From: a virus
Length of the DNA stretch: 57,363 bases
Virus record (IMG/VR): IMGVR_UViG_3300043466_002831
Span: 1-57,363 of that record
Reading direction: 5' to 3' (one strand)
Shown: positions 5,067-50,176 of the stretch, piece by piece
How positions within the stretch are numbered: position 1 is the stretch's first letter
Layout: each line of letters starts with the position of its first letter
The notes under the pieces: generated by a model
Database searches by the model: none
What the model saw: only the letters and a program-made list of their open reading frames with translations
What the model was told of the DNA's origin: nothing
Position numbers and translations under genes: made by a program

Positions 5067-7445
5067 ATGAAATGGGATTTATTCAATCCACAACCAGAAT
5101 TTAATTACAAAACAATGTCAACAAAGTTAGACGTAGAATCGTTGGAGAATCCTTATATTCAAGTGGTATGGGAAGACACACCAGAAAACTTCACACAAGA
5201 AAGAATTAAATCGGTTAAGCAATATTTTCAAAAGAAATATAACTCAACCAACATTAATGTCATCTCAAAGGTTAAGACCACAGAAGACACACAACAAACG
5301 ATTGATGTGTCAGTTAACATCATGGATAAGAACTACCAAAGAGAACTTATCAAGTCAATGTTGGAATCCAAAGGTCAAGAACAATATTACGAACAAGTAA
5401 TGGGAATTGATTCTGCGGTTGAGAATAGATTGACTGCCAACGATGTTGAAGTTACAGCATTTAAGAAATGGCACATCAAGAAGATTGAATTCAGTAACTT
5501 CTTATCTTATGGTGAGAACCAAGTTATTGACTTCGACCAATGTAATGGTATTACCGTGGTTGAATCAGACCCACCAAACTTTGGAGGTAAGACCGTATTA
5601 ACGGTAGACTTATTATTGTTCTTGTTCTTCAACACAACAACAAAGACACAGAAGGCCGAAGAAATCTTTAATCGATTTACCGATAAAAACACGGTAGTTG
5701 TTAAAGGTGACATTATCATTGACGGTGAGGAGTACATCATCGCCCGTAAGATTGAAAGAAAGAAATCTAAAGCTGGCGAATGGAATGTTAAAACTGAGTT
5801 AGAGTTCTTCAAGAAACTTGCTGACGGACAACTTCAAAACTTTACAGGTGAACAACGTAGAGAGACCGAGAACTTCATGAAAACATCTATCGGTAGTATG
5901 GATGACTTCTTGATGACAATCGTAACAACTGCGTCAAACCTTGAAGATTTATTGGAAGCAAAACCAACAGCCCGTGGTCAAGTATTAAGTAGATTCTTGG
6001 GTCTTGAGTTCTTGAAAAAGAAAGAAGAAACTGGTAAAGAAATCTATTCTGAGTTCTCAAAGGGGATGTTATCAAATGTATATAACACAGAGTCTTTGAA
6101 ACAAGACAATGATAGTTCATCGGAACAAATCCAAACACTTAAAACTCAGATTGAAGAGTCTGAAACAAAAGTTAAAGATGTTGACTTGAGATTACAGAAA
6201 GGTCAGGAGTACAAAGACAATTTATTGAAGTCAAAATATTCTGACATCGACCAAGAACTTATTGTCTTAAACCCACTTAAACTACAATCAGACATCACAG
6301 ACTTTGATGGTTCTTGCGAAAGACTTAGAGGTCAAATCAAAGAGGTTAAGATTGTTGAACCAAAAGAGTTTTATCATGAAGACAAACATGATGAGATTAA
6401 AGAAGGGATGAAAACCACAAACGGTGAACTTATCCTCGCTCAGAACAAAGTCGAAGAGATTGAACAATTGGTTAAAAAGTTTGGGGACGGTATTCAATGT
6501 GAACACTGTGGAATCAAATTGATGGAAGCGGCACTCACAAAGAAAAAGATTGATGAGTTGGGTGATTGGGAGAAAAAGGTTGACACCTTATCCAAAAAAT
6601 GGAAAGACCTTGATTACAAAGAGAAAACGTACACCCAACTTAAGAAAGACTTTGACGAATATGAAAAAAACAAACTTATCAAAGAGAAGTATGAAGTTCA
6701 ATTGGAGTCAGGTGAATTAAAACTTCAACAAGCAAAAGACAAACTTAAACGATACGAAGAGGTTCAAGATAAGATTAAGAAGAACAATGAGATTGATGCT
6801 CAGTTGGTGAAGGCTGGTTTACGTATTGATGAATTGATTAACGAGAAACGTAGTTATGAACGAATTCAAACCACAAACCACACTCAAATCGAAAACCTTC
6901 AAGCTCGTATTGAAAAGAACAATGGTTTCATCTTGAAAATTGCCGAGGAGTTTGAACGTGAAAAGATTTACAAGATGTATGTTGATGTGTTCGGTAAGAA
7001 TGGTATCACCAAAATGATTATGAGAACCATGATGCCGTTGATTAACTCTGAACTTCAACGATTACTTCAGGACTCATGTTACTTCAACTTGGAGATTCGT
7101 ATTAATGAAAAGAATGAAGTTGAATTCATGATGATTGATAACTCAACTGGTATTGAAAAACTGATGGTATCGGGTTCGGGTTATGAAAGAACCATCGCGG
7201 CTATGGCATTGAGAGCGGTACTATCAAAAGTATGTTCACTTCCAAAACCAAACATTATTGTATGGGATGAGGTCTTTGGAAAGATTTCAAACGATAACTT
7301 AGAAATGGTTGGGGAGTTCTTTACCAAGATGAAGGAATATTTTGAGAAGATATTTGTCATCACTCACAACCCGTTGGTGAATAACTGGTCAAACAACGTG
7401 GTCAAGATTACCAAGACCGACAATATTTCAAAAGTCTCACAGTAA
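5067..7445 (+). CDS. gp46/SbcC-like recombination exonuclease, SMC-type ATPase subunit
   Basis: This 792-aa ATPase pairs with the gp47-like subunit. The ABC head begins near residue 135 (WHIKKIEFSNFLSYGENQ). The P-loop near 166-174 reads DPPNFGGKT, not the usual GxxGxGKS/T. A long coiled coil carries a CEHCG zinc hook at about residues 478-482. The second half-head has SGSGYERTIAAMALR as the signature and NIIVWDEVFGK as Walker B near residue 729, then a VITHN switch. About 134 residues of unknown function precede the head, which is unusual. The start at 5067 is chosen because it lies 1 nt after the previous stop. Another ATG lies at 5115. Confidence 0.88.
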   Translation: MKWDLFNPQPEFNYKTMSTKLDVESLENPYIQVVWEDTPENFTQERIKSVKQYFQKKYNSTNINVISKVKTTEDTQQTIDVSVNIMDKNYQRELIKSMLESKGQEQYYEQVMGIDSAVENRLTANDVEVTAFKKWHIKKIEFSNFLSYGENQVIDFDQCNGITVVESDPPNFGGKTVLTVDLLLFLFFNTTTKTQKAEEIFNRFTDKNTVVVKGDIIIDGEEYIIARKIERKKSKAGEWNVKTELEFFKKLADGQLQNFTGEQRRETENFMKTSIGSMDDFLMTIVTTASNLEDLLEAKPTARGQVLSRFLGLEFLKKKEETGKEIYSEFSKGMLSNVYNTESLKQDNDSSSEQIQTLKTQIEESETKVKDVDLRLQKGQEYKDNLLKSKYSDIDQELIVLNPLKLQSDITDFDGSCERLRGQIKEVKIVEPKEFYHEDKHDEIKEGMKTTNGELILAQNKVEEIEQLVKKFGDGIQCEHCGIKLMEAALTKKKIDELGDWEKKVDTLSKKWKDLDYKEKTYTQLKKDFDEYEKNKLIKEKYEVQLESGELKLQQAKDKLKRYEEVQDKIKKNNEIDAQLVKAGLRIDELINEKRSYERIQTTNHTQIENLQARIEKNNGFILKIAEEFEREKIYKMYVDVFGKNGITKMIMRTMMPLINSELQRLLQDSCYFNLEIRINEKNEVEFMMIDNSTGIEKLMVSGSGYERTIAAMALRAVLSKVCSLPKPNIIVWDEVFGKISNDNLEMVGEFFTKMKEYFEKIFVITHNPLVNNWSNNVVKITKTDNISKVSQ

Positions 7446-8587: not shown

Positions 8588-9385
8588 ATGAAAGAAAAAT
8601 CATCAATTCCAATTAACCAAGAAGAGATTGCGGGATATCTCAAGGACATTCGTAGAATCCGAGTTATGACACCTGATAGGGAGAGAGAACTGGCAAAACA
8701 GATGTTATCTCCTGATGTGACAGAACGAGAGAAGAAAGAGATTCAACAGGAGTTGTTGGAAGGTAACCTTCGTTTTGTCATCACGGTGAGTAAACAATAC
8801 CAGAATCAAGGATTGGATTTATCTGACTTGATTGCTGAAGGGAACTATGGTCTTATGAAGGCTATCGAAAACTTTGATTGGACCAAAGGATTAAGATTCA
8901 TCTCTTATGCTGTATGGTGGGTTCGTCAATCAATCTTGCAATCGTTGAACGAGAATGCAAGAACCATTCGTCTCCCTGTTAATGTGGTTCAAGAATTGCA
9001 TCGAGCGAAGAAGGAGTTGGACTCAGCGGGAGTTGAATTACCTGAGAAATTTGCAACCTTACCTTATACCATTAACTTGGACAATCCATTAAATGAAGAA
9101 GGTGACACCCTATTGGATATCTTGAATAATCCAAATGCGGAATTAGCTGATGCTAATCTATCAACTGAGGACACCTTGAAGAAGAAACTCCTCGAAATGT
9201 TGGACGTGTTGGACAATCGTGAACGAGTAATCATTGAAGATTATTTTGGATTGACAGGTAATACCAGGACATTGGAAGATATTGGTGGTGACTTTTCATT
9301 AACCAAAGAAAGGGTTCGACAAATCAAGGAGAAGGCTCTACGAAAGTTAAGAAACGAAACGTCAAGTTTGTTTGATTATATGTAA
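8588..9385 (+). CDS. Phage-encoded sigma-70 factor, primary type
   Basis: This 265-aa protein should redirect host RNA polymerase. It has a region 1.2-like start (EIAGYLKDIRRIRVMTPDRERELA), then region 2 with GNLRFVITVSKQYQNQGLDLSDLIAEG and FISYAVWWVRQSILQSL (core binding and -10 recognition). A reduced region 3 follows, then region 4 with TLEDIGGDFSLTKERVRQIKEKALRKLR, the helix-turn-helix for the upstream element. Region 1.1 is missing, as in Bacteroidetes RpoD. Its place beside the gp46/47 genes mirrors the neighbourhood of T4 gene 55, the late sigma, so I infer a late-gene role. It is followed by a terminator. Confidence 0.9.
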   Translation: MKEKSSIPINQEEIAGYLKDIRRIRVMTPDRERELAKQMLSPDVTEREKKEIQQELLEGNLRFVITVSKQYQNQGLDLSDLIAEGNYGLMKAIENFDWTKGLRFISYAVWWVRQSILQSLNENARTIRLPVNVVQELHRAKKELDSAGVELPEKFATLPYTINLDNPLNEEGDTLLDILNNPNAELADANLSTEDTLKKKLLEMLDVLDNRERVIIEDYFGLTGNTRTLEDIGGDFSLTKERVRQIKEKALRKLRNETSSLFDYM

Positions 9386-17844: not shown

Positions 17845-18777
17845 ATGAATAATTATTACGAAACTTTGGGCGTAAGTAAAGACGCCACTCAAGATGAAAT
17901 CAAGAAGGCTTATAGAAAGCTAAGTAAACAATACCATCCCGATGTAAATCCTGAGGGTGGTGAAAAATTTAAAGAGATTTCAGTTGCGTATGATGTTGTT
18001 GGGGATGAAACTAAAAGAGCTCAGTATGATAATAAGTTAAACAATCCGTTTGCAGGTAATGGAGGTATGTCGTACGAGGATTTGTTTAATCAGATGTTTG
18101 GTAACCAAGGACAGAATCCATTTGGAGGTAGACAAAAAACCGCACCCGACAAAATAATTAAAGTTCGAATAAACCCAATCGAATCATATAACGGTATAGA
18201 CAAGAATATCCAATACGTTAAAGACAACCATTGTAATACTTGTAATGGTAGTGGGGGAGAACAACAAAACTGTAATACTTGTGGAGGTGCTGGATTCCAA
18301 ATAAAAACATTTGGGACTGGGTTCATGGTTCAACAGATTAGAACCGCATGTCAAACATGTGCAGGACGTGGATACACTTTAGTTCATAGATGTTATAGTT
18401 GTGACGGTAAAGGGGTTAAACCAACAACCCATGAAGTTAATGTTAAATTACCTGTTGGTGTTGATAATGGTCAATATTTAAAACTTGCTGGTCTTGGAGA
18501 CTTTAGAAACGGACAATATGGTGATTTGGTTATCCAAATAGAAATGGTGAACCAAGATGGGTTTGAAAAAATGAATAATGATTTGATTTATAATTTGTTC
18601 TTGAATTTACAAGAGATACAAGATGATAAGTTTATAATACCACATCCAAATGGAGAATTAACTATAAATGCACTACCTATTTTTGATTCATCTAAACCTT
18701 TAAGATTAAAGGGTAAGGGATTTAACGGTGGGGATATGTACGTTAAATTGAACGTTAAGTTTAATAAGGTTATTTAA
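17845..18777 (+). CDS. dnaJ: DnaJ (Hsp40) co-chaperone, type I
   Basis: This 310-aa protein should stimulate host DnaK and deliver substrates to it. Residues 1-63 are a J domain with the HPD triad at 31-33. A short G/F-rich stretch ([29 protein letters not shown]) follows. The zinc region has four CxxCxGxG-type motifs ([32 protein letters not shown]) between about residues 130 and 190. C-terminal beta domains end VKFNKVI. It is shorter than bacterial DnaJ (about 370 aa) because the second C-terminal domain is reduced. No GrpE or DnaK is in the window. Confidence 0.93.
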
Positions 18778-20034: not shown

Positions 20035-21354
20035 ATGAAGTTCACGTCGATTTTAAAAAGAGTCATTTTAGAGCAGTCAAGATTTGAATTGTTGTCTGAC
20101 GCATTAACCAAACCATCAAAAGACAAAGAAGGTAATAAGGTTAAACCTAAAATGAGTAAAGAAGAGTTCAACCAATTAGTTCAGGCTGACCCAACAACAA
20201 GATTAAATAATGTTGATTTAACCGCTGCGGATTCTAAGGAACTTGAAAAGGTTAAAGCTGGTAAATACGTTCAGTGGTTGATTAAACAATACTTAATGCC
20301 AAAAACCGAAAGACAACCTGGTGAATCGGGATATGAACGTGAAGTTCAACAAGTGAAAGAAACTTTCATGGAGGATTTATATAAGGTTACAGATGACCTT
20401 GCAAAATTTGAAAAGTTTAAGGGTAAACTTCCTCAAGACATGAGAGATATTAACAAGTTAACTCCCGATGCATTATACGATGCAGTTAAGGACTTTGACT
20501 TGACTTTAGCAACAACTACAAAGGCTGAGAGACAATCAGCTCCTGTTCACCCTGGTGCTAAATTGGTATTCGACGGACCAACATGGAGAGTTATTGAAAT
20601 TGAAAACAAAGGACCTGTAGGTAAAGAAGCTGCTTGTTTCTACGGAGGGCACAATAGAGAAACAAGATGGTGTACATCAACACCTGGTACAGACCAATGG
20701 TTTAATCGTTATATTAAAGATGGTCCTTTATATGTTGTATATAATCCAAGTGATACACAAGTTGCACCTGAAACAGGATTACCTGTAAATAGATATCAGT
20801 TCCACTTCCCATCCAATCAGTTCATGGATAAGGATGACCGTCAACAAGATTTGGTTCAGTTATTGAACGGACCAATGAAAGAGTTGAAAAACTTCTTCAA
20901 ACCTGAATTTGCAAAAGGTTTAACAACTGGCGGTGAGAAATTAGTTATTGATAGTTTCAGTCATGGTGCGATTGGCAAGTTTATTGGATTATACGGATTG
21001 GATGATTTGATTGGTAATTTACCTGACACATTGAAAGAATTCCATATTCAAAACAGAGATAAGAATGGTTTAATCATCAACATCCCTGAAGAAATTGGAA
21101 GGTTCAAAGATTTGACTGGTATTATCTTGGACAACTGTATTGCAAGTGTTCCTGATTCAATCTGTACTTTACCTAAATTGAGATTCTTGGCATTGAACAA
21201 CAACGAAAAACTTACAAGTATTCCTGATTGTATTGCGGATTTACCAAGTTTATACTTCTTGAATCTTAAAGGTAGTAACAACGTACAAGTTCCTGAATCA
21301 ATCAAAGCTAAGGGTACTGAAATGGGACCAGGCATGTGGGACCTTCAAGACTAA
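20035..21354 (+). CDS. WCT-module protein with C-terminal leucine-rich repeats, 439 aa
   Basis: The N-terminus (MKFTSILKRVILEQ) matches the capsid-targeting-like pattern. A helical region (about 20-165) leads to the 'WCT' module near residues 190-260 (GGHNRETRWCTSTPG, WFNRYIKDGPLYVVYNP). Two other proteins here share this module (26469 and 38828). Residues about 325-425 are leucine-rich repeats (LPDTLKEFHI, IPEEIGRFKDLTGIILDN, VPDSICTLPKLRFLALNN, LPSLYFLNLKG). LRRs usually bind proteins, so a virion-delivered effector is one idea. Function unknown. Confidence 0.7.
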   Translation: MKFTSILKRVILEQSRFELLSDALTKPSKDKEGNKVKPKMSKEEFNQLVQADPTTRLNNVDLTAADSKELEKVKAGKYVQWLIKQYLMPKTERQPGESGYEREVQQVKETFMEDLYKVTDDLAKFEKFKGKLPQDMRDINKLTPDALYDAVKDFDLTLATTTKAERQSAPVHPGAKLVFDGPTWRVIEIENKGPVGKEAACFYGGHNRETRWCTSTPGTDQWFNRYIKDGPLYVVYNPSDTQVAPETGLPVNRYQFHFPSNQFMDKDDRQQDLVQLLNGPMKELKNFFKPEFAKGLTTGGEKLVIDSFSHGAIGKFIGLYGLDDLIGNLPDTLKEFHIQNRDKNGLIINIPEEIGRFKDLTGIILDNCIASVPDSICTLPKLRFLALNNNEKLTSIPDCIADLPSLYFLNLKGSNNVQVPESIKAKGTEMGPGMWDLQD

Positions 21355-26425: not shown

Positions 26426-26447
26426 TGGAAATATAAGACTAAAAGAA

Positions 26448-26455
26448 TATTTATC
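26448..26455 (+). promoter_or_regulatory. Candidate late-promoter motif TATTTATC
   Basis: A near match to TATTTATA, 13 nt upstream of the ATG at 26469. The gene would thus have both a host-type and a late-type promoter. Confidence 0.35.
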
Positions 26456-26468
26456 AATTAAAGATACG

Positions 26469-28226
26469 ATGGATTTTTTAAAATTAATACAAGAAGGTAG
26501 AATTGACGATTTCAAAGCCAAGTACTCACAAAAGTTTGGTGAGGAGAATATAAAGAAGATATTAAAGTCAGTCCCACAGAAATATTTGGACTGGGTTGGT
26601 AAACATATGGATGGGGTTAACTTTGACGAGAACCTTTCAAAGATTGAAACTGCTCTTAATGCGTTCCAAAAGATTTCAAGCAACCTTCCAATCACTGACC
26701 TATATCAATATAAGAGTATCGGTCAATTATTTTCAGCCTTAACCGATTACCAAACAAGACAAAGACGAATTGTTAAGAAAGTTGAGGGAGGTAATGTTGT
26801 ATATGATGACGGTAGATTTTTTGTTGTTAATCCATTAACTTATGATACGTCTTGTTATTATGGTAAGGGTACTAAGTGGTGTACTGCAGCATCTACTGAC
26901 CATCAGTTCAAAAGGTATAATGAAGATGGTAAGTTGTTTTATATATTAGACCGACAAGCACCATCTGACAATAAGTTCTATAAAGTTGCATTACTTCAAA
27001 AATTTGATGGGGATAAAACATATTATGATGCATTGGATGCTACGGTTAATAGTGGGTGGATTATCGGAACAAACAAATTGAATGAAATATTAAGTTCTGT
27101 TGACGACTATCTTAATTCAGAATATCCTGAACAAGTTAAGATTTTTAAGGATAAAGAGTTGGCTCGTAAAGAAAGAGACCGATTGGAAAGAGCAAGACAA
27201 GCTCAAATATTAAGACAACGAGAAGAGGAAGCTCAAGAAAGACGTATTGATAATGAATGGGCTTTGGGTCCTAATTGTCCTGATGAAGGTTTAAGGGCTC
27301 ATGCCTTATTGGAGTTTTTATCTGATAATGGAGATGCTGAGATATTAACCAACTTGGACCGAGGTGAGATTGCCAGAATCGAAACTGAGATTGACCAACT
27401 TCAAGCAGAATTTGATAATGATGATGAAGTAAGAAATGATTTGTTGGCGGAGATTGGTGAACTTGAAGATGAGTTGGAAGAATTGGACCAAAAGATTGAT
27501 GTTTACAATATCATCCCAACAGGTTCTTATTATGATACAGATGAATTTGAAGTGATTGGAGTTCCTGACTTGGAAGACCGTAGATATGCAGTTGGAAACG
27601 AACGTGAAATGCAATCAAGTGCTGAGGAATATGTAGAACAATTGATTGATGATGTAGGTTATGAGGGATTCAATTCTAATTTCGTGAGACAACACCTTGA
27701 TTATGATGCAGTTATTGCATATGCCGAAGATTTATTTAATCAAGATGTTTATCAAAATCCTGAGATTTACATCGAAGAATCGGAAAGGGAATTGTCAAGA
27801 AAACAAGAAGAAGACGTTAAAGTTAGGGAAGATAAAATCCAAAGATTGAGTGAGTACATTTCAAGATTGGAAAGTGACATGGATGGTGAAGATGATGAAG
27901 AAATCCAAGAAAAAATTGATGAACTACAAGAATCGATTGATGAGATGGAACAAGAGATTGAAGAAATTAAGGAGGACCCAGAAGGTGACTTCCCTGATGA
28001 ATTAATTGAAGAAATTATCTCAGATAGAGTTCGAGAAGCAAACAATGATATAGAAGGGTTTATGAATGAGTGGGGATTGGAATGGAATGAATATGTAGAT
28101 AAAGATGCATTCATTAAAGCGGTTATTGATGAAGATGGTTACGGTCACACATTAAACGGATATGATGGAAGTGCCGATGAAGTTACTATTCAAGATGAGT
28201 TATTTTATGTTATGAGAATTGATTAA
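26469..28226 (+). CDS. WCT-module protein with long acidic coiled coil, 585 aa
   Basis: The start at 26469 is used because a longer frame from 26397 would include the promoter. Residues 1-15 (MDFLKLIQEGRIDDF) fit the targeting-like pattern. A helical domain to about 115 precedes the WCT module near 125-175 (YGKGTKWCTAAS, FKRYNEDGKLFYILDRQ). Its spacing matches the 38828 protein closely (Trp at about 137 and 138). From about 225 onward it is highly charged, with coiled coils (IQRLSEYISRLESDMDGED...) and an acidic C-terminus. Function unknown; perhaps an injected or internal virion protein. Confidence 0.65.
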   Translation: MDFLKLIQEGRIDDFKAKYSQKFGEENIKKILKSVPQKYLDWVGKHMDGVNFDENLSKIETALNAFQKISSNLPITDLYQYKSIGQLFSALTDYQTRQRRIVKKVEGGNVVYDDGRFFVVNPLTYDTSCYYGKGTKWCTAASTDHQFKRYNEDGKLFYILDRQAPSDNKFYKVALLQKFDGDKTYYDALDATVNSGWIIGTNKLNEILSSVDDYLNSEYPEQVKIFKDKELARKERDRLERARQAQILRQREEEAQERRIDNEWALGPNCPDEGLRAHALLEFLSDNGDAEILTNLDRGEIARIETEIDQLQAEFDNDDEVRNDLLAEIGELEDELEELDQKIDVYNIIPTGSYYDTDEFEVIGVPDLEDRRYAVGNEREMQSSAEEYVEQLIDDVGYEGFNSNFVRQHLDYDAVIAYAEDLFNQDVYQNPEIYIEESERELSRKQEEDVKVREDKIQRLSEYISRLESDMDGEDDEEIQEKIDELQESIDEMEQEIEEIKEDPEGDFPDELIEEIISDRVREANNDIEGFMNEWGLEWNEYVDKDAFIKAVIDEDGYGHTLNGYDGSADEVTIQDELFYVMRID

Positions 28227-29435: not shown

Positions 29436-30644
29436 ATGAAAAGAAAAGTAGAATACGTGTGGCTCGACGGATATAAACCTGAGCCGAACTTAAGAAGTAA
29501 AGTTAGAATATTGGATTTCAAATATGAAAACCTTATTTTATTGACCGATATTCCTGAATGGGGTTTTGATGGCTCATCAACTATGCAAGCAGAAGGATAC
29601 TCATCAGATTGTTTCCTTAAACCTGTTAAGTTGTATTCTAACAACTCAGACAGAATTTATGTTCTGTGTGAGGTAATGGGTAGTAATGGGAAACCACACC
29701 AAACAAATGACAGAGCTAAATTAGGTAAAGAAGACAATGATTTTTGGGTTGGATTTGAACAAGAATATTTTATTCGCTCAGCTCATAATAAAGAAATCCT
29801 TGGATTTAATAGAGGAGGTGCGATTGACCCACAAGGAAAATATTATTGTGGTGTTGGTGGACAAATGGTTGGAAGAAGTTTGACTGAAGAACATTTGGAT
29901 ATGTGTTTGGCATACCATATTGGTATTGAAGGTACCAATGCTGAAGTTGCTTTAGGTCAGTGGGAGTATCAAGTATTTTCTAAAGGTAAGTTAACCGCTT
30001 CTGACGATTTATGGATGTCTCGTTATTTCCTTTACAAAATTGCTGAGAAACATGGATTACAAATTGAATTTCACCCTAAACCTATGGTATTCGGTGATTG
30101 GAATGGCTCAGGACTTCACACAAACTTCTCAAACAATAGAATGAGAGAACAGGGCGGAGAAGAATACTTCAAATCAATTTTCAAAGTATTTGGCTCAAGA
30201 ACTAAAGAACATATCGATAACTATGGTTCAGACAATCACTTGAGATTGACTGGTAAACATGAGACTCAGGCAATTGACAAATTTAGTTGGGGTATTTCAG
30301 ACAGAGGTGCATCAATCAGAGTTCCAAGAAGTGTTGGTGAAACATGGAAAGGTTATTTAGAGGACAGACGACCATCATCAAACGCCAATCCTTATAAAAT
30401 CTTAAATGTGATTTGTGAATCTTTATCTTTAGCTGAAGAGTTGGACGAAACACTTCATATTATGTATGATGATGATGTTGACACAACCAAACTTAGTGAG
30501 AAATTTGGTGCAATGTCTAATGAGGATTTATTGGACCAATATCGCAAAGATGCTGAAACTGAATTTGACAACATGGTTGACTTAATGGAATCAAAGGCGA
30601 ATATTCCTTCAGAGGAAATAAAATTTAATGTAAATCAAAATTAA
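29436..30644 (+). CDS. Glutamine synthetase, type II (GSII)
   Basis: This 402-aa enzyme should make glutamine from glutamate, ammonia and ATP. GSII signatures are all visible: WGFDGSSTMQA near residue 43, VGFEQEYF near 106 (metal Glu residues), GVGGQMVGR, GTNAEVALGQWEYQV near 170, FGDWNGSGLHTNFS near 220, DNHLRLTGKHET near 266, SWGISDRGASIRVPR near 285 and YLEDRRPSSNANPY near 305. The catalytic residues appear intact. It is longer than many GSII proteins by an acidic C-terminal tail (about 345-402). GSII is typical of eukaryotes and some bacteria including Bacteroidetes. It is a rare auxiliary metabolic gene for a phage. Confidence 0.95.
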   Translation: MKRKVEYVWLDGYKPEPNLRSKVRILDFKYENLILLTDIPEWGFDGSSTMQAEGYSSDCFLKPVKLYSNNSDRIYVLCEVMGSNGKPHQTNDRAKLGKEDNDFWVGFEQEYFIRSAHNKEILGFNRGGAIDPQGKYYCGVGGQMVGRSLTEEHLDMCLAYHIGIEGTNAEVALGQWEYQVFSKGKLTASDDLWMSRYFLYKIAEKHGLQIEFHPKPMVFGDWNGSGLHTNFSNNRMREQGGEEYFKSIFKVFGSRTKEHIDNYGSDNHLRLTGKHETQAIDKFSWGISDRGASIRVPRSVGETWKGYLEDRRPSSNANPYKILNVICESLSLAEELDETLHIMYDDDVDTTKLSEKFGAMSNEDLLDQYRKDAETEFDNMVDLMESKANIPSEEIKFNVNQN

Positions 30645-34479: not shown

Positions 34480-34851
34480 ATGAAAGAAGAAATTATTATA
34501 AAATTAGTACAAATTCAAACACAATTTAGATTTGTGCATTGGCAAACTACTTATGATGCCAAACATAGGGCGTATGGTAAAGTTTACGATAAGATGGGAG
34601 ACTTAATAGACGATTTTGTTGAGGCTATGATGGGTAAATATGGAAGACCTGTGTTCGATAGCGAATTCGGAATAATGTTCCAAGATTTAGAGTCAATGAA
34701 ATTACAGAACTTCATTGATGGTACTTGTGAATTTTTAATTTCACTAACAGAGCAATTGAATCCCACTATGGATACTGATTTATTAAATTTACGAGATGAA
34801 ATGTTACTTTTAATAAATAAATTAAAATACTTATTAACACTAAAATACTAA
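34480..34851 (+). CDS. DUF5856/ferritin-like four-helix protein, 123 aa
   Basis: The pattern FVHWQTTYDAKHRAYGKVYDKMGDLIDDFVEAMMGKYGR (about residues 16-52) is that of a phage family I know as DUF5856, with a Dps/ferritin-like helical bundle. The His residues and acidic positions resemble the HWxxxxxxxH feature of Dps. Metal binding is possible but unproved. The start at 34480 is preferred over an upstream one that overlaps the previous gene. Its stop overlaps the next ATG. Confidence 0.65.
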   Translation: MKEEIIIKLVQIQTQFRFVHWQTTYDAKHRAYGKVYDKMGDLIDDFVEAMMGKYGRPVFDSEFGIMFQDLESMKLQNFIDGTCEFLISLTEQLNPTMDTDLLNLRDEMLLLINKLKYLLTLKY

Positions 34852-37178: not shown

Positions 37179-37232
37179 ATGTCCCACAGGCATTTGATTA
37201 TTCGAAAAAATAGTTTTATCTTTGTGGGACAT
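37179..37232 (+). repeat. 10-bp perfect inverted repeat enclosing promoter 3
   Basis: ATGTCCCACA (37179-37188) and TGTGGGACAT (37223-37232) bracket the -33 and -7 elements. The right arm begins within the -7 box and covers the transcription start. It could be an operator or a DNA/RNA hairpin. Confidence 0.7.
37193..37224 (+). promoter_or_regulatory. Promoter 3, for the tRNA
   Basis: TTTG at 37193-37196, exactly 20 nt, TATCTTTG at 37217-37224, a perfect consensus. It is 39 nt upstream of the tRNA. Confidence 0.8.
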
Positions 37233-37242
37233 TACTTTGAAA

Positions 37243-37253
37243 GTTCTTTAACA
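37243..37253 (+). promoter_or_regulatory. boxA-like antitermination sequence before the tRNA
   Basis: GTTCTTTAACA resembles the boxA of bacterial rRNA leaders (core CTCTTTAACA in E. coli), which recruits Nus factors. It lies between promoter 3 and the tRNA. Confidence 0.5.
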
Positions 37254-37363: not shown

Positions 37364-37395
37364 TTTGGAAAATCGAAAAAGTATACTTATCTTTG
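37364..37395 (+). promoter_or_regulatory. Promoter of the giant structured RNA
   Basis: TTTG at 37364-37367, exactly 20 nt, TATCTTTG at 37388-37395. Transcription should start near 37400. Confidence 0.8.
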
Positions 37396-37413
37396 TAAAA
37401 CAATTAAGAAAAC

Positions 37414-37423
37414 GTTCTTTGAA
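37414..37423 (+). promoter_or_regulatory. boxA-like sequence in the giant RNA leader
   Basis: GTTCTTTGAA, about 15 nt after the predicted start. It resembles boxA and could suppress Rho-dependent termination across the long untranslated RNA. Confidence 0.45.
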
Positions 37424-38334
37424 TTAAAGATATTATCCGTTCAGGAAACACAAAAGTGTCGGTGATATTATCCACCGAGTAAATGGCAGAAAGTCCGCAG
37501 CTTGAGTGTAACTGATAAAGATATTGGGCGGTCTATAGTCCATAAAATAAACCATGAAAGTGGTATAAAGTGAATCATTTGGTTAAGTGGTTTGCGGCTT
37601 TCGAAAGAGAGCTCGAGTAGACAAGCGAGATATCGTTAGACCTTGAGTACCGAGGGTGACACTGTAGGGAAACTGGTTTGATGACCAAGCGATGTGGGTC
37701 GTTTGGTTGAGATGGGAACATCAATAAGAATAACTCGTAGAATTATTACAAGACATACGGTCATCCAACCGTACAATTGTGTGATTCATTACAAGAGTGG
37801 GTTTAAAACCGAAAGGTAAGAGGTCGTACAGGTGGTGCTGTTGTCTCCTTCTTAATTTCTCTACCAAGAGAGTTAGGATGAAACAAACTTGAAGTATGAA
37901 GATAGGGATATCTTAGGGAGTAGTTAAGTATCGTGTCGTTCAAAAGATGACATGGCTTGGTCGGCGAACCGCTACTTTCATCATCCACAACCGCAAACTT
38001 TGTTAATTAAGGTTTAACAACTAAAAGATACAAGGAAAAGCGTTCGCCAGTCGTGATTGACAGGTCACTACATAGTCATGAGATGTTCATGGCCGTAAAG
38101 GGTCCCAAGCCCAATACGATTGTTGTGAAAGTTCTCTAAGTCCGCAAGACCGAATCAGGGTGGCAACCTTGAAGAGCAACGAGTAAAAACAGAGTAGATT
38201 ACGACTTAAGGATTGGTTAATCTAATTGACCGTGACTGAGAATTACTATTCAAAAGATAGTGGAAATCGGAGGAAAAAATAATCTCCTGTAAAGATTCTC
38301 ATACGAAGGTGTATTCTCAACCTGAAGCCAAGAA

Positions 38335-38362
38335 CCCCGACAAGAAATTGTTGGGGTTTTTT
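38335..38362 (+). terminator. Terminator of the giant RNA
   Basis: CCCCGACAA (38335-38343), GAAA tetraloop and TTGTTGGGG (38348-38356), a 9-bp stem (one G-T pair) followed by six T residues. Confidence 0.9.
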
Positions 38363-38827: not shown

Positions 38828-39703
38828 ATGTCAAAAGTAGACGAACTAAGAACAAAATTCCCTCAAGTAACTAACGGAACATTCATCAAAATGGTTCAGT
38901 TTGATTTTACAGGTACTCATAAATATTTGGAGTATATGTTAAAAAATTGGGCATACGAACGCACTCAACGTGGTATGAATTATACTCTTAATCGACTTAT
39001 GGAGGAGGTCAAAAAATTTGATGAGTTACTACCATATCATACAAATAAAGACATTTATTCTGAGGACTTTAATCATTATCGTAAATTGATTCAAATGAAC
39101 GAGAAGGCTCAAACTGTGAAAGATGACAAAACATTTGTTAAATCAGAACATGTTGACGTACTTTACGAAGATGATAATGTCATTATGGTTTCACCTAAGA
39201 CTCATAGAGGTTCTTTGAAATATGGTGCTGGTACCACATGGTGTACTGCTTCTAAGAGTAATGCTGATACGTTCAAGAGATATTCCAAAAACGGATGTTT
39301 GGTTTATCTGGTGGATAAGACAGAATCAACGAAAAAGAATTATCAAAAAATTGCGTTTTATAATAACACTGGAAAAAGTTTATCAGGTGAAATTGAAATC
39401 TACACTCAAAATGATAACCAGACTAGTGAGACGAGTTTAGTTAATAATGGTTGGAAACCTGAGAAATTAGCTGAGTTGATGTTAAGATATCGTGCTTATC
39501 ATGTAGATAAGGAAGCAGTCAAAAGAGCAAAGAGTAAAGTTGAATCTCTTATTGACGCTATGAAGAACCTTGACCTTGACGAACTTTATACAAATTTAAA
39601 ATATCTTGAAAACCGAGGTGAGAATGAGTTCAAAGATGTTAAAAATGTTGTAAACGCTTTTGTTAGTACGGTTGAAAAAAGTTTGGAGAAATACAAAGTT
39701 TGA
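38828..39703 (+). CDS. WCT-module protein, 291 aa
   Basis: An N-terminal helical domain (residues 1-115) leads to the WCT module near 125-180 (YGAGTTWCTASK, FKRYSKNGCLVYLVDK, YQKIAFYN). The spacing before the Trp (about 138) equals that in the 26469 protein, so the two share the whole N-terminal half. The C-terminal helix is lysine-rich. It follows smpB by 5 nt and is likely co-transcribed. The biochemical function is unknown. Confidence 0.65.
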   Translation: MSKVDELRTKFPQVTNGTFIKMVQFDFTGTHKYLEYMLKNWAYERTQRGMNYTLNRLMEEVKKFDELLPYHTNKDIYSEDFNHYRKLIQMNEKAQTVKDDKTFVKSEHVDVLYEDDNVIMVSPKTHRGSLKYGAGTTWCTASKSNADTFKRYSKNGCLVYLVDKTESTKKNYQKIAFYNNTGKSLSGEIEIYTQNDNQTSETSLVNNGWKPEKLAELMLRYRAYHVDKEAVKRAKSKVESLIDAMKNLDLDELYTNLKYLENRGENEFKDVKNVVNAFVSTVEKSLEKYKV

Positions 39704-48256: not shown

Positions 48257-50176
48257 ATGCTAATGAAAAAAATTCTCCTTTCCCTAACGTTCTCGTTATT
48301 AACCATTTTTGGTTTTGGGCAAACCACAACTTGTCCAATACCATCGACCGCAGGTGTTTACATTAACTTGGACACCTCGTACTTAGCAGGTACCGTTGCT
48401 CAAGGTTTTACCAATGTAGATTTATGTTTCTACAACAATACCTCGACAAAGATTACCGCTTTCCAATTTAGAGTTTTCTACGATAACTCGGCTTTTTCAG
48501 GTATCGATACCATAACTTCACTGAATACTTCATTCGCTCAAAACTTGAAATATTCTGTTGCTCAGGCATCTGGTTCGGCAACAATCACTTTCACTTATAC
48601 AGGTAGTTTATCAACATTTGAATTACCGTCAGGTCCGATTGTTAGATTAAAACTAGACCATGTATCAAACTTCGCATCACTTACTTCAATTGCGAATATG
48701 ACATTTGGAACAGTATCTACATATCCTGCAGTTGCAGCTAAACAAGATGGTACAGATAATACATTAACTCTACAAAACTACGGTGGTGTAATTGCTCCTC
48801 AAACAATGTCATTCAAAGGTACTTTTACCAACGTGACAGGTTCAGGGGCTAAAAACCTTACAGTTGCTTTGGAGAAGAAACTTAAACCAAGTGGTTCGTG
48901 GGTTCAAGTTACCAGTCAACTTACAAACACACAAGGTAAGTTTAATTTTGCAAACGTGGCAATAGATACTACAGGTTATTTTGTAAGAATTAAAGTACAA
49001 GGTGATACTATGGGTGTAGGTAACGTAATATCCACAGCAGATGCTCAAAAAGTACAGGACTATGTATTAGGTACACAAACACCAACAGGTTTTGATTACT
49101 ATGCTGCTGATGTTAATGGTGACAATAACTTAACTATCTCGGATGCTTGGGGTACATTTGGTAGAATCTCAGGTAGATTCTCTGTATGGCCTAACAACGT
49201 AAAAGATGTTAAGTTCTTTACAGTATCACAATACGGAACTATCAACGGTTCATCCACTAACTATACTTCATCAATTGCAGGTGTAACCAACTTCACTTAT
49301 GATATCATCGCAGGTCAACCTGACTCAGTTACTTACTATGTTTTAGTACCAGGTGATGCTAATGGAACAGGTTATAACATGGCACGTATGACACCAATCG
49401 AAGTGTTAATCGCACCTCAACCAGGTGTTGAACATCAAATCTATAATGTGATTGATAGTAGAGTTGAATATGATTTCCCAACAACAACTATCGAAGTTAA
49501 CGTACCAAGGTTATCAGTACAAGAAGGTAACTTGGTTAATGTACCTGTTAAAGTTTTAACTAACGGTACTGAGTTAGGTTCATTACAGTTCGGATTAAAA
49601 TACAACGATACATTACTTGAGTTCAAAGGTGTTGAAACAAAATCAGCAACTTCAAGTTGGGTATCATACTTGAACACAAACGACAACCAAATTGATTGGG
49701 GTGGATTCGATGTGAACAACCACACCAAACCACTTGTTGATGGTGCTGAGGTTGTGACTTTACAATTCGTTGCAAAAAAACCACAAGCGGAATGGACAGT
49801 TAGTCCTTTATGGACAACAAACAAATTCGCAGGAAACAACCAATGTAAAGATTTGGAAATCACACCAACAAACGGAATCGTTCAAGTATATAAGATGGCT
49901 TTCGGTGGTGATTTAACAGGTAATGATGAGATTACAGTTTCACCAAATCCAACAGATGATTTCACAACAATTACATTTAAAGTTAAAGAATACGGTCCTG
50001 TTAAACTTTCAGTTAAAGATTTAATGGGTAGAGAATATGAAGTTGTTTTGGATGGTTCAGTTCCAAAAGGAGAATATTCTTACATGGTTGATTTAGGTAA
50101 CTTATCACCAGGAGTTTACGTGGCAATGTTAAGAAGAGTTGACACAAACATCGCAACAAAAATAGTTGTACAATAA
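48257..50176 (+). CDS. Secreted cohesin/dockerin-like protein with T9SS type A sorting domain, 639 aa
   Basis: Signal peptide (MKKILLSLTFSLL...FGFG, cleaved before Gln). A cohesin-like beta sandwich (about 25-175) is followed by a carboxypeptidase-regulatory-like domain (about 178-250) and a dockerin-like unit with a Ca loop, AADVNGDNNLTISDAWG (about 275-300). A second cohesin-like domain lies at about 410-545 (IEVNVPRLSVQEGNLVNVPVKV). The C-terminal T9SS sorting domain starts at about 562 (SPNPTDDFTTITF, then VKDLMGRE, LGNLSPGVYVAML, KIVVQ). It should be exported by the host T9SS to the cell surface. An alternative ATG is at 48263. Confidence 0.85.
   Translation: MLMKKILLSLTFSLLTIFGFGQTTTCPIPSTAGVYINLDTSYLAGTVAQGFTNVDLCFYNNTSTKITAFQFRVFYDNSAFSGIDTITSLNTSFAQNLKYSVAQASGSATITFTYTGSLSTFELPSGPIVRLKLDHVSNFASLTSIANMTFGTVSTYPAVAAKQDGTDNTLTLQNYGGVIAPQTMSFKGTFTNVTGSGAKNLTVALEKKLKPSGSWVQVTSQLTNTQGKFNFANVAIDTTGYFVRIKVQGDTMGVGNVISTADAQKVQDYVLGTQTPTGFDYYAADVNGDNNLTISDAWGTFGRISGRFSVWPNNVKDVKFFTVSQYGTINGSSTNYTSSIAGVTNFTYDIIAGQPDSVTYYVLVPGDANGTGYNMARMTPIEVLIAPQPGVEHQIYNVIDSRVEYDFPTTTIEVNVPRLSVQEGNLVNVPVKVLTNGTELGSLQFGLKYNDTLLEFKGVETKSATSSWVSYLNTNDNQIDWGGFDVNNHTKPLVDGAEVVTLQFVAKKPQAEWTVSPLWTTNKFAGNNQCKDLEITPTNGIVQVYKMAFGGDLTGNDEITVSPNPTDDFTTITFKVKEYGPVKLSVKDLMGREYEVVLDGSVPKGEYSYMVDLGNLSPGVYVAMLRRVDTNIATKIVVQ

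Follow-up and report, generated by a model that had tools for sequence, protein, structure and literature searches.

A gene-free stretch of a phage genome is nearly certainly a GOLLD RNA, a new member of a known family, and RNAs of this family are, as far as gene order can tell, genomically coupled to phage tmRNA or smpB and less often to both. The stretch lies at 37400-38362 of the window, by which we mean the whole 57,363-nt piece of DNA analysed, which belongs to a virus record of 137752 bases (G000). The GOLLD identity, the anatomy of the unit and its coupling to tmRNA or smpB form a package that we consider probable, with the role of the RNA put conditionally throughout. The features of the locus are these:

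37217-37224, + strand: TAnnTTTG promoter box before the tRNA, TATCTTTG
37243-37251, + strand: boxA in the tRNA leader, GTTCTTTAA
37264-37338, + strand: tRNA-Met(CAT), initiator-like
37388-37395, + strand: TAnnTTTG promoter box of GOLLD, TATCTTTG
37414-37422, + strand: boxA in the GOLLD leader, GTTCTTTGA, exact motif
37531-37914, + strand: GOLLD 5' domain, helices with compensatory changes, outside the Rfam model
37916-38323, + strand: GOLLD 3' domain, Rfam RF02032, covariance match of 327 bits
37975-38040, + strand: variable linker of the 3' domain, 66 nt, without a tRNA
38138-38151, + strand: hairpin with loop CGCAA and self-complementary GC, by position taken as L21a
About 38238-38301, + strand: three-way junction of the GOLLD consensus, from the Rfam consensus structure
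38330-38361, + strand: intrinsic terminator with a GAAA loop
38384-38391, + strand: TAnnTTTG promoter box of smpB, near the start codon
38397-38822, + strand: smpB, SmpB protein of 141 aa, Pfam PF01668, E 6.6e-45, 153 bits

The identity of the RNA is set by the covariance-model search, in which the Rfam GOLLD model matched the + strand from model position 1 to 416 (E 5.6e-93), at 327 bits against a gathering score of 150 bits. The sequence-only reading had named GOLLD and ROOL as candidate classes, had allowed for a new class, and had proposed a test with both Rfam models; when the test was run, GOLLD proved correct, and ROOL (RF03087) gave no match in the window at gathering score or at E up to 5. 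Among the Rfam covariance models of other large RNA families, none reached its gathering score in the window. ROOL is likewise a giant cage-forming phage RNA (a cage at the window locus is presumed from its GOLLD class), and size and setting, but nothing else, would speak for ROOL or a novel giant class; with the GOLLD model matched end to end and the ROOL model unmatched, we reject this alternative as having a negligible probability. The same early reading had described the stretch as gene-free structured RNA, and its longest wholly contained open reading frame is indeed 61 aa or less. The unit, ordered promoter, boxA, GOLLD and terminator, measures 910 nt from boxA to the end of the model and about 960 nt from promoter to terminator, above the ~800 nt that marks GOLLD, and its phage location and tRNA-Met neighbour fit the class. 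GOLLD RNAs are also recognized by a level that rises during lysis. Relatives in the uncultured huge phages LR745206.1 and LR756502.1 match the model with 287 and 275 bits. By blastn against an annotated phage collection, the window GOLLD matched two uncultured huge phages alone, with smpB 67-88 kb off, and GOLLD next to smpB was not found in that collection.

Several lines of evidence indicate that the RNA has both domains of the class. At least 117 IMG/VR stretches with a GOLLD signature were collected by a pattern scan that favours GOLLDs resembling that of the window; once the window and LR745206.1 were added, the 3' domain was complete in 101, and reduction at 95% identity left 64 non-redundant loci (among the matches listed, as are all counts over these loci below). 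The Rfam model covers the 3' domain alone, so called here for 37916-38323, and the 5' part was therefore taken from an alignment of 49 homologues, with L014, L022, L074 and L087 dropped beforehand. RNAalifold placed 111 pairs in this alignment, of which 107 were kept; four pairs touching boxA were left out because the sequences had been selected on that motif. Over these 107 pairs, 96.1% of cells are paired and both partners change in 83 pairs; 500 shuffles never scored as high, and slid partners pair in 37-42%. The local helices claimed from the single sequence are substantiated by covarying helices at 37531-37914, and the covariation check among homologues gave a strong result under both the shuffle and the slide control. 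Because the 5' helices covary and the 3' model is matched, the window RNA has both GOLLD domains; at the level of sequence, the GOLLD RNA at 37414-38323 is complete with its two domains. Within the 3' domain, the three-way junction drawn earlier at 38238-38300 belongs to the Rfam GOLLD consensus structure. The linker varies from 45 to 91 nt across the 64 loci, with no clear difference in length according to the presence of smpB. The loop at 38138-38151 may correspond, by position, to L21a of the published cage, the self-complementary loop (GC or CG) through which the two halves of the cage are joined (PMC12286853). It carries GC in the window and in 45 of the 64 loci, while 12 have the loop GTCGA, with CG one base later, and 7 another loop or a gap.

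GOLLD appears to be transcribed in the manner of rRNA. The claim that the RNA has its own perfect promoter stands for the TAnnTTTG box TATCTTTG at 37388-37395, which we take to be the Bacteroidota -7 promoter element, and falls for a sigma-70 type promoter, since 7 such sites in 1.9 kb against 5.3 expected are not above chance. TAnnTTTG boxes are common in the AT-rich window (88 found versus 80.6 expected), so the weight rests on the position of the box. Likewise, the boxA motif occurs 4 times against 3.2 expected in the window and therefore counts only by position and conservation. On both grounds, the boxA-like leader suggested earlier is borne out. Measured from a fixed point in the 3' domain, the exact motif lies 760-1150 nt upstream in 50 of 59 non-redundant loci, compared with 2.2% of 1286 background windows of equal length; moving the limit to 700 nt raises the count to 54 of the 59 leaders. 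The misses comprise one-base variants in L020, L059 and L081 and no motif in L058 and L063. In 15 of the 54 boxA loci, the distance from the start of the promoter box to boxA is 34-36 nt, and boxA is the stronger of the two signals. A search of 8 kb at the GOLLD of Oceanobacillus profundus, which follows tRNA-Asn and tRNA-Pro, turned up no exact boxA. The predicted GAAA-loop terminator was recovered as an intrinsic terminator at 38330-38361.

The form GTTCTTT[AG]A is presumably the boxA of Bacteroidota rRNA. An rRNA-type boxA site binds NusB/S10 and blocks Rho termination. The GOLLD leader resembles that of an rRNA operon (boxA, rrnTAC) in that the promoter, which serves a long untranslated structured RNA, is soon followed by this motif; it differs in that the GOLLD unit contains no rRNA, and an antitermination role for its boxA is putative. 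According to PMC10250234, boxA is both required and sufficient to recruit the rRNA antitermination complex.

The host is probably a member of the Bacteroidota: the promoter type of the phage and a sorting domain for the T9SS are both taken as markers of that phylum. The sorting domain forms the tail of a phage gene at 48257-50176 that also has a cohesin domain. Elsewhere in the window the phage encodes a sigma-70 factor (8588-9385), a glutamine synthetase (29436-30644) and DnaJ (17845-18777). Proteins at 38828-39703, 20035-21354 and 26439-28226, the first directly following smpB, share a WCT(A/S) motif and weakly match phrog_28193, a family without an assigned function, and two of them also match phrog_17056.

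The tRNA upstream of GOLLD is initiator-like, as had been read from the sequence. By eye, tRNA-Met(CAT) lacks a 1-72 pair and has A11:U24 in the D stem, which we take to be initiator features; it departs from the type in having A:U rather than G:C at 29:41. Of the 54 non-redundant loci whose flanks were long enough, 20 lack a nearby tRNA, 13 have several and 21 have exactly one, and the lone tRNA is Met-CAT in 18 of the 21. Most of these lone tRNAs look like initiators by the same features, the D stem and the missing 1-72 pair, again judged by eye. Some GOLLD loci are large tRNA arrays; in the window phage, the other tRNAs found by ARAGORN are grouped in an array about 95 kb from GOLLD, which spans 132.6-137.5 kb of the record. 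In the huge phage LR756502.1 (L003), a tRNA-like gene at 6838-6911 starts 10 nt past the GOLLD 3' end, and Met-CAT lies ~5-100 nt past the GOLLD end in a number of other loci. According to the cryo-EM work, its env-38 GOLLD lies downstream of a Met-tRNA, and GOLLD is known near tRNA islands (PMC12286853).

The SmpB gene reported right after GOLLD was confirmed by its Pfam match, which spans residues 7-141 of an intact protein with the GKK..DKR tail kept. Seen from the GOLLD side, 17 of 119 records carry smpB (among the matches listed), and these include a second copy of the window phage. By an adjacency list compiled by hand, smpB stands directly downstream of GOLLD on the same strand within 1.7 kb in 10 of these 17, where 0.19 would be expected at random placement; it lies ~4-7 kb upstream in 3 and far off in 4. 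Seen from the SmpB side, 14 of 16 close relatives of the window SmpB carry GOLLD. The RNA is found at 30 of the best 80 of 561 SmpB relatives, a set that includes the window-phage copy (L155), near-identical contigs and most of the 16 close relatives. It is always upstream on the same strand, with a gap of 73-1659 nt, narrowing to 73-104 nt in 18 of the 30. A whole-contig search of 45 of the 50 GOLLD-less smpB loci yielded one GOLLD, 54 kb from smpB, and no ROOL was found beside smpB in those 45 records by a search that was unmatched in its controls too.

An operon is not favoured as the basis of this link. A TAnnTTTG box lies just before the smpB start in 13 of 13 distinct close GOLLD-smpB loci (L155 being the window-phage copy), and the smpB mRNA is likely leaderless or nearly so. 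The spacer of the 13 loci holds a terminator-like hairpin with a T-run, supported by fold energy in 9 and read by eye in 4. Since smpB has its own promoter box, co-transcription does not account for the link. Across 102 ORFs downstream of GOLLD in non-redundant loci, with the window left out and the smpB of L081 running off its locus, no Pfam family dominates (SmpB 2, RNaseH_like 5, Band_7 3). One of the 102 ORFs is a TROVE-domain (Ro-like RNA-binding) gene.

The earlier remark on smpB as an unusual neighbour paid off: smpB, and elsewhere tmRNA, recur beside GOLLD. In covariance searches, records holding both GOLLD and smpB yielded a tmRNA above the gathering score in 18 of 40 cases, and two sets of other GOLLD records yielded one in 20 of 50 and 24 of 50. 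In the GOLLD-side set, 116 of the 119 records were searched (L100, L116 and L119 were left out) and 55 have a tmRNA (among the matches listed), with L020 just below threshold. Within 2.5 kb of GOLLD, whose ends were set at fixed offsets from the pattern site, lie 47 of 56 tmRNAs, against 7.4 expected and a maximum of 18 in 20,000 simulations with redundancy kept; on contigs above 50 kb the count is 20 of 28 against 1.3 expected. The remaining 9 of the 56 lie 3-174 kb away. The near tmRNAs fall mainly downstream on the opposite strand (37); on the strand of GOLLD itself, 9 lie upstream (57-439 nt) and 1 downstream. The records are partly redundant, for example seven sharing one geometry of 135-136 nt. 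Reduced to the 64 non-redundant loci, a tmRNA within 2.5 kb is present in 19, an adjacent smpB in 5 and the two together in 3, and 33 of the 47 non-redundant loci with adequate flanks have neither.

A converse scan started from the tmRNA side. It used a tmRNA 5'-end motif derived from GOLLD-side tmRNAs, did not require GOLLD itself, and covered 111 of 116 stretches, leaving out L099, L101, L105, L108 and L111, which belong to the GOLLD set with a near tmRNA. GOLLD was present in 47 of the 111 tmRNA loci, always convergent with the tmRNA, and in 21 of the 32 loci whose flanks reach 1.5 kb or more upstream and 2.5 kb or more downstream. No smpB was found in the locus DNA of these 111 loci, nor in a repeat at E 1e-3 that did recover two positive controls; tmRNA and smpB are thus mostly alternative neighbours of GOLLD, and the trio of GOLLD, tmRNA and smpB is limited to some of the smpB phages (18 of 40). 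Of 25 loci given to ARAGORN, 19 have a tmRNA called at the Rfam position, including 7 of the permuted type. In the 137.7-kb record of the window phage, which may be incomplete, the search for tmRNA returned only sub-threshold tRNA-like matches. Some tmRNAs beside GOLLD or in the same record (loci L246, L249, L258, L239 and L240) encode long predicted tags, such as GNVLNKMETLGLLRESEVTVA and AKLSAVGLIRSEEVVTA, that end in VA or TA and not AA. The tmRNA with AKLSAVGLIRSEEVVTA was called as permuted, and another tmRNA type encodes ANVDYSTEYYAVAA. Proteins that receive such unusual tags may be destined for something other than the customary proteolysis. The tmRNA and SmpB of huge phages, as described in PMC7162821, belong to the same gene families; here they are coupled to GOLLD, and the window phage has smpB only.

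The GOLLD cage is described in PMC12286853 as a hollow self-assembly of 14 subunits, a molecule of unknown function whose pull-downs bound ribosomes and for which cargo such as tRNAs or ribosomes was suggested. A Lactobacillus brevis prophage could produce phage without its GOLLD (PMC7567579). The window RNA resembles the family (RF02032) in the whole 3' model, the covarying 5' domain, the variable linker, the phage setting and the tRNA-Met neighbour, and differs in having smpB directly downstream and an rRNA-type boxA leader. Searchable literature yielded no GOLLD-smpB link, the one co-mention of SmpB concerning host genes. Outside the founding Weinberg 2009 description, which the searchable literature did not include, no GOLLD-boxA link was found, nor any GOLLD-tmRNA coupling (including the available parts of PMC6582537 and PMC5643018).

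One way to read the coupling is that the cages built by GOLLD contribute directly to ribosome rescue by the phage, together with phage SmpB or tmRNA and an initiator tRNA, a reading that we hold only tentatively and consider somewhat unlikely. Host NusB/S10 and partners would load at boxA and allow Rho-resistant, chaperoned, rRNA-like transcription of GOLLD, which would then assemble and serve the ribosome-rescue and translation-takeover functions of the phage. In these, tRNA-fMet, SmpB and tmRNA would release and restart host ribosomes, and the cage might capture ribosomal particles or tRNA/tmRNA-SmpB late in infection. The cage may accordingly act on ribosomes or rescue factors, and ribosomal or rescue cargo would be the best fit to the genomic coupling. 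Proximity of GOLLD to smpB or tmRNA does not prove interaction, and we are cautious about both the package and the rescue reading because the tmRNA side lacks smpB and the tmRNA motif came from GOLLD neighbours.

Two other readings keep real weight. Phages may gather stable-RNA genes in one exchangeable region where smpB rides along with no tie to rescue, which is quite plausible if short of probable. Such a region would agree with the published position of GOLLD near tRNA islands (PMC12286853), the several loci that are large tRNA arrays, the tmRNA-side loci without smpB, and the swapping of GOLLD types beside nearly the same smpB. However, no tRNA lies within ~2.5 kb in 22 of 30 examined tmRNA-near loci (of the 47) and Met stands alone in 4; the tRNA array of the window phage is remote from GOLLD, which has one initiator-like tRNA and smpB at its side; and smpB is protein-coding, with order and strand constant in the 30 GOLLD-smpB loci. 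Alternatively, and in our view unlikely, the cage would shelter tRNA-like RNAs of the phage (tRNA-fMet, tmRNA, linker tRNAs) from host nucleases, the rescue link being secondary. The frequency of tRNA-Met and tmRNA as neighbours agrees with such sheltering, as does a linker that lies within the cage and sometimes bears a tRNA (PMC12286853). This leaves smpB unexplained, and because linkers are short, and tRNA-free in the window, the cargo would have to enter from outside.

Common descent from one ancestor in which GOLLD already stood beside smpB (or tmRNA), with no selection to keep them close, is a still less probable account of the coupling. Many sampled loci are closely related, the well-supported branches of the SmpB tree are compatible with one origin of the linkage and force no more, and the smpB-adjacent label is more clustered on the GOLLD tree than in 500 shuffles. 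Against this, GOLLD-linked rows fall in three places of the SmpB tree as drawn, and well-supported branches of the GOLLD tree force at least 6 changes of the label. In L157, an SmpB 96% identical to that of the window accompanies a GOLLD from another branch; on these sequences, GOLLD lineages have been exchanged beside nearly the same smpB. Moreover, tmRNA occurs in two main geometries, and the GOLLD-smpB pair occurs in two gene backgrounds with little else in common, joined among the 25 largest shared-protein groups only by smpB and by a single family whose members share a motif at the N terminus. A motif MKNLFNxISQEEKNRILEMH begins different proteins in L167, L209, L215 and L218, and the window ORF at 34851 begins comparably with IKLTESDLTRIVKRVIAEQ; the shared motif is possibly a virion-targeting or cleaved leader.

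The RNA class itself is known; what is new is its recurrent coupling to tmRNA or smpB, seen from both sides, and its boxA leader. Together they are the first concrete genomic pointer found to what the GOLLD cage may act on, and they make the question of GOLLD function specific and testable by pull-down and deletion. If the rescue reading is true, the cages would enclose or sort ribosomal particles or rescue complexes, and the phage would thereby control which ribosomes translate late in infection.
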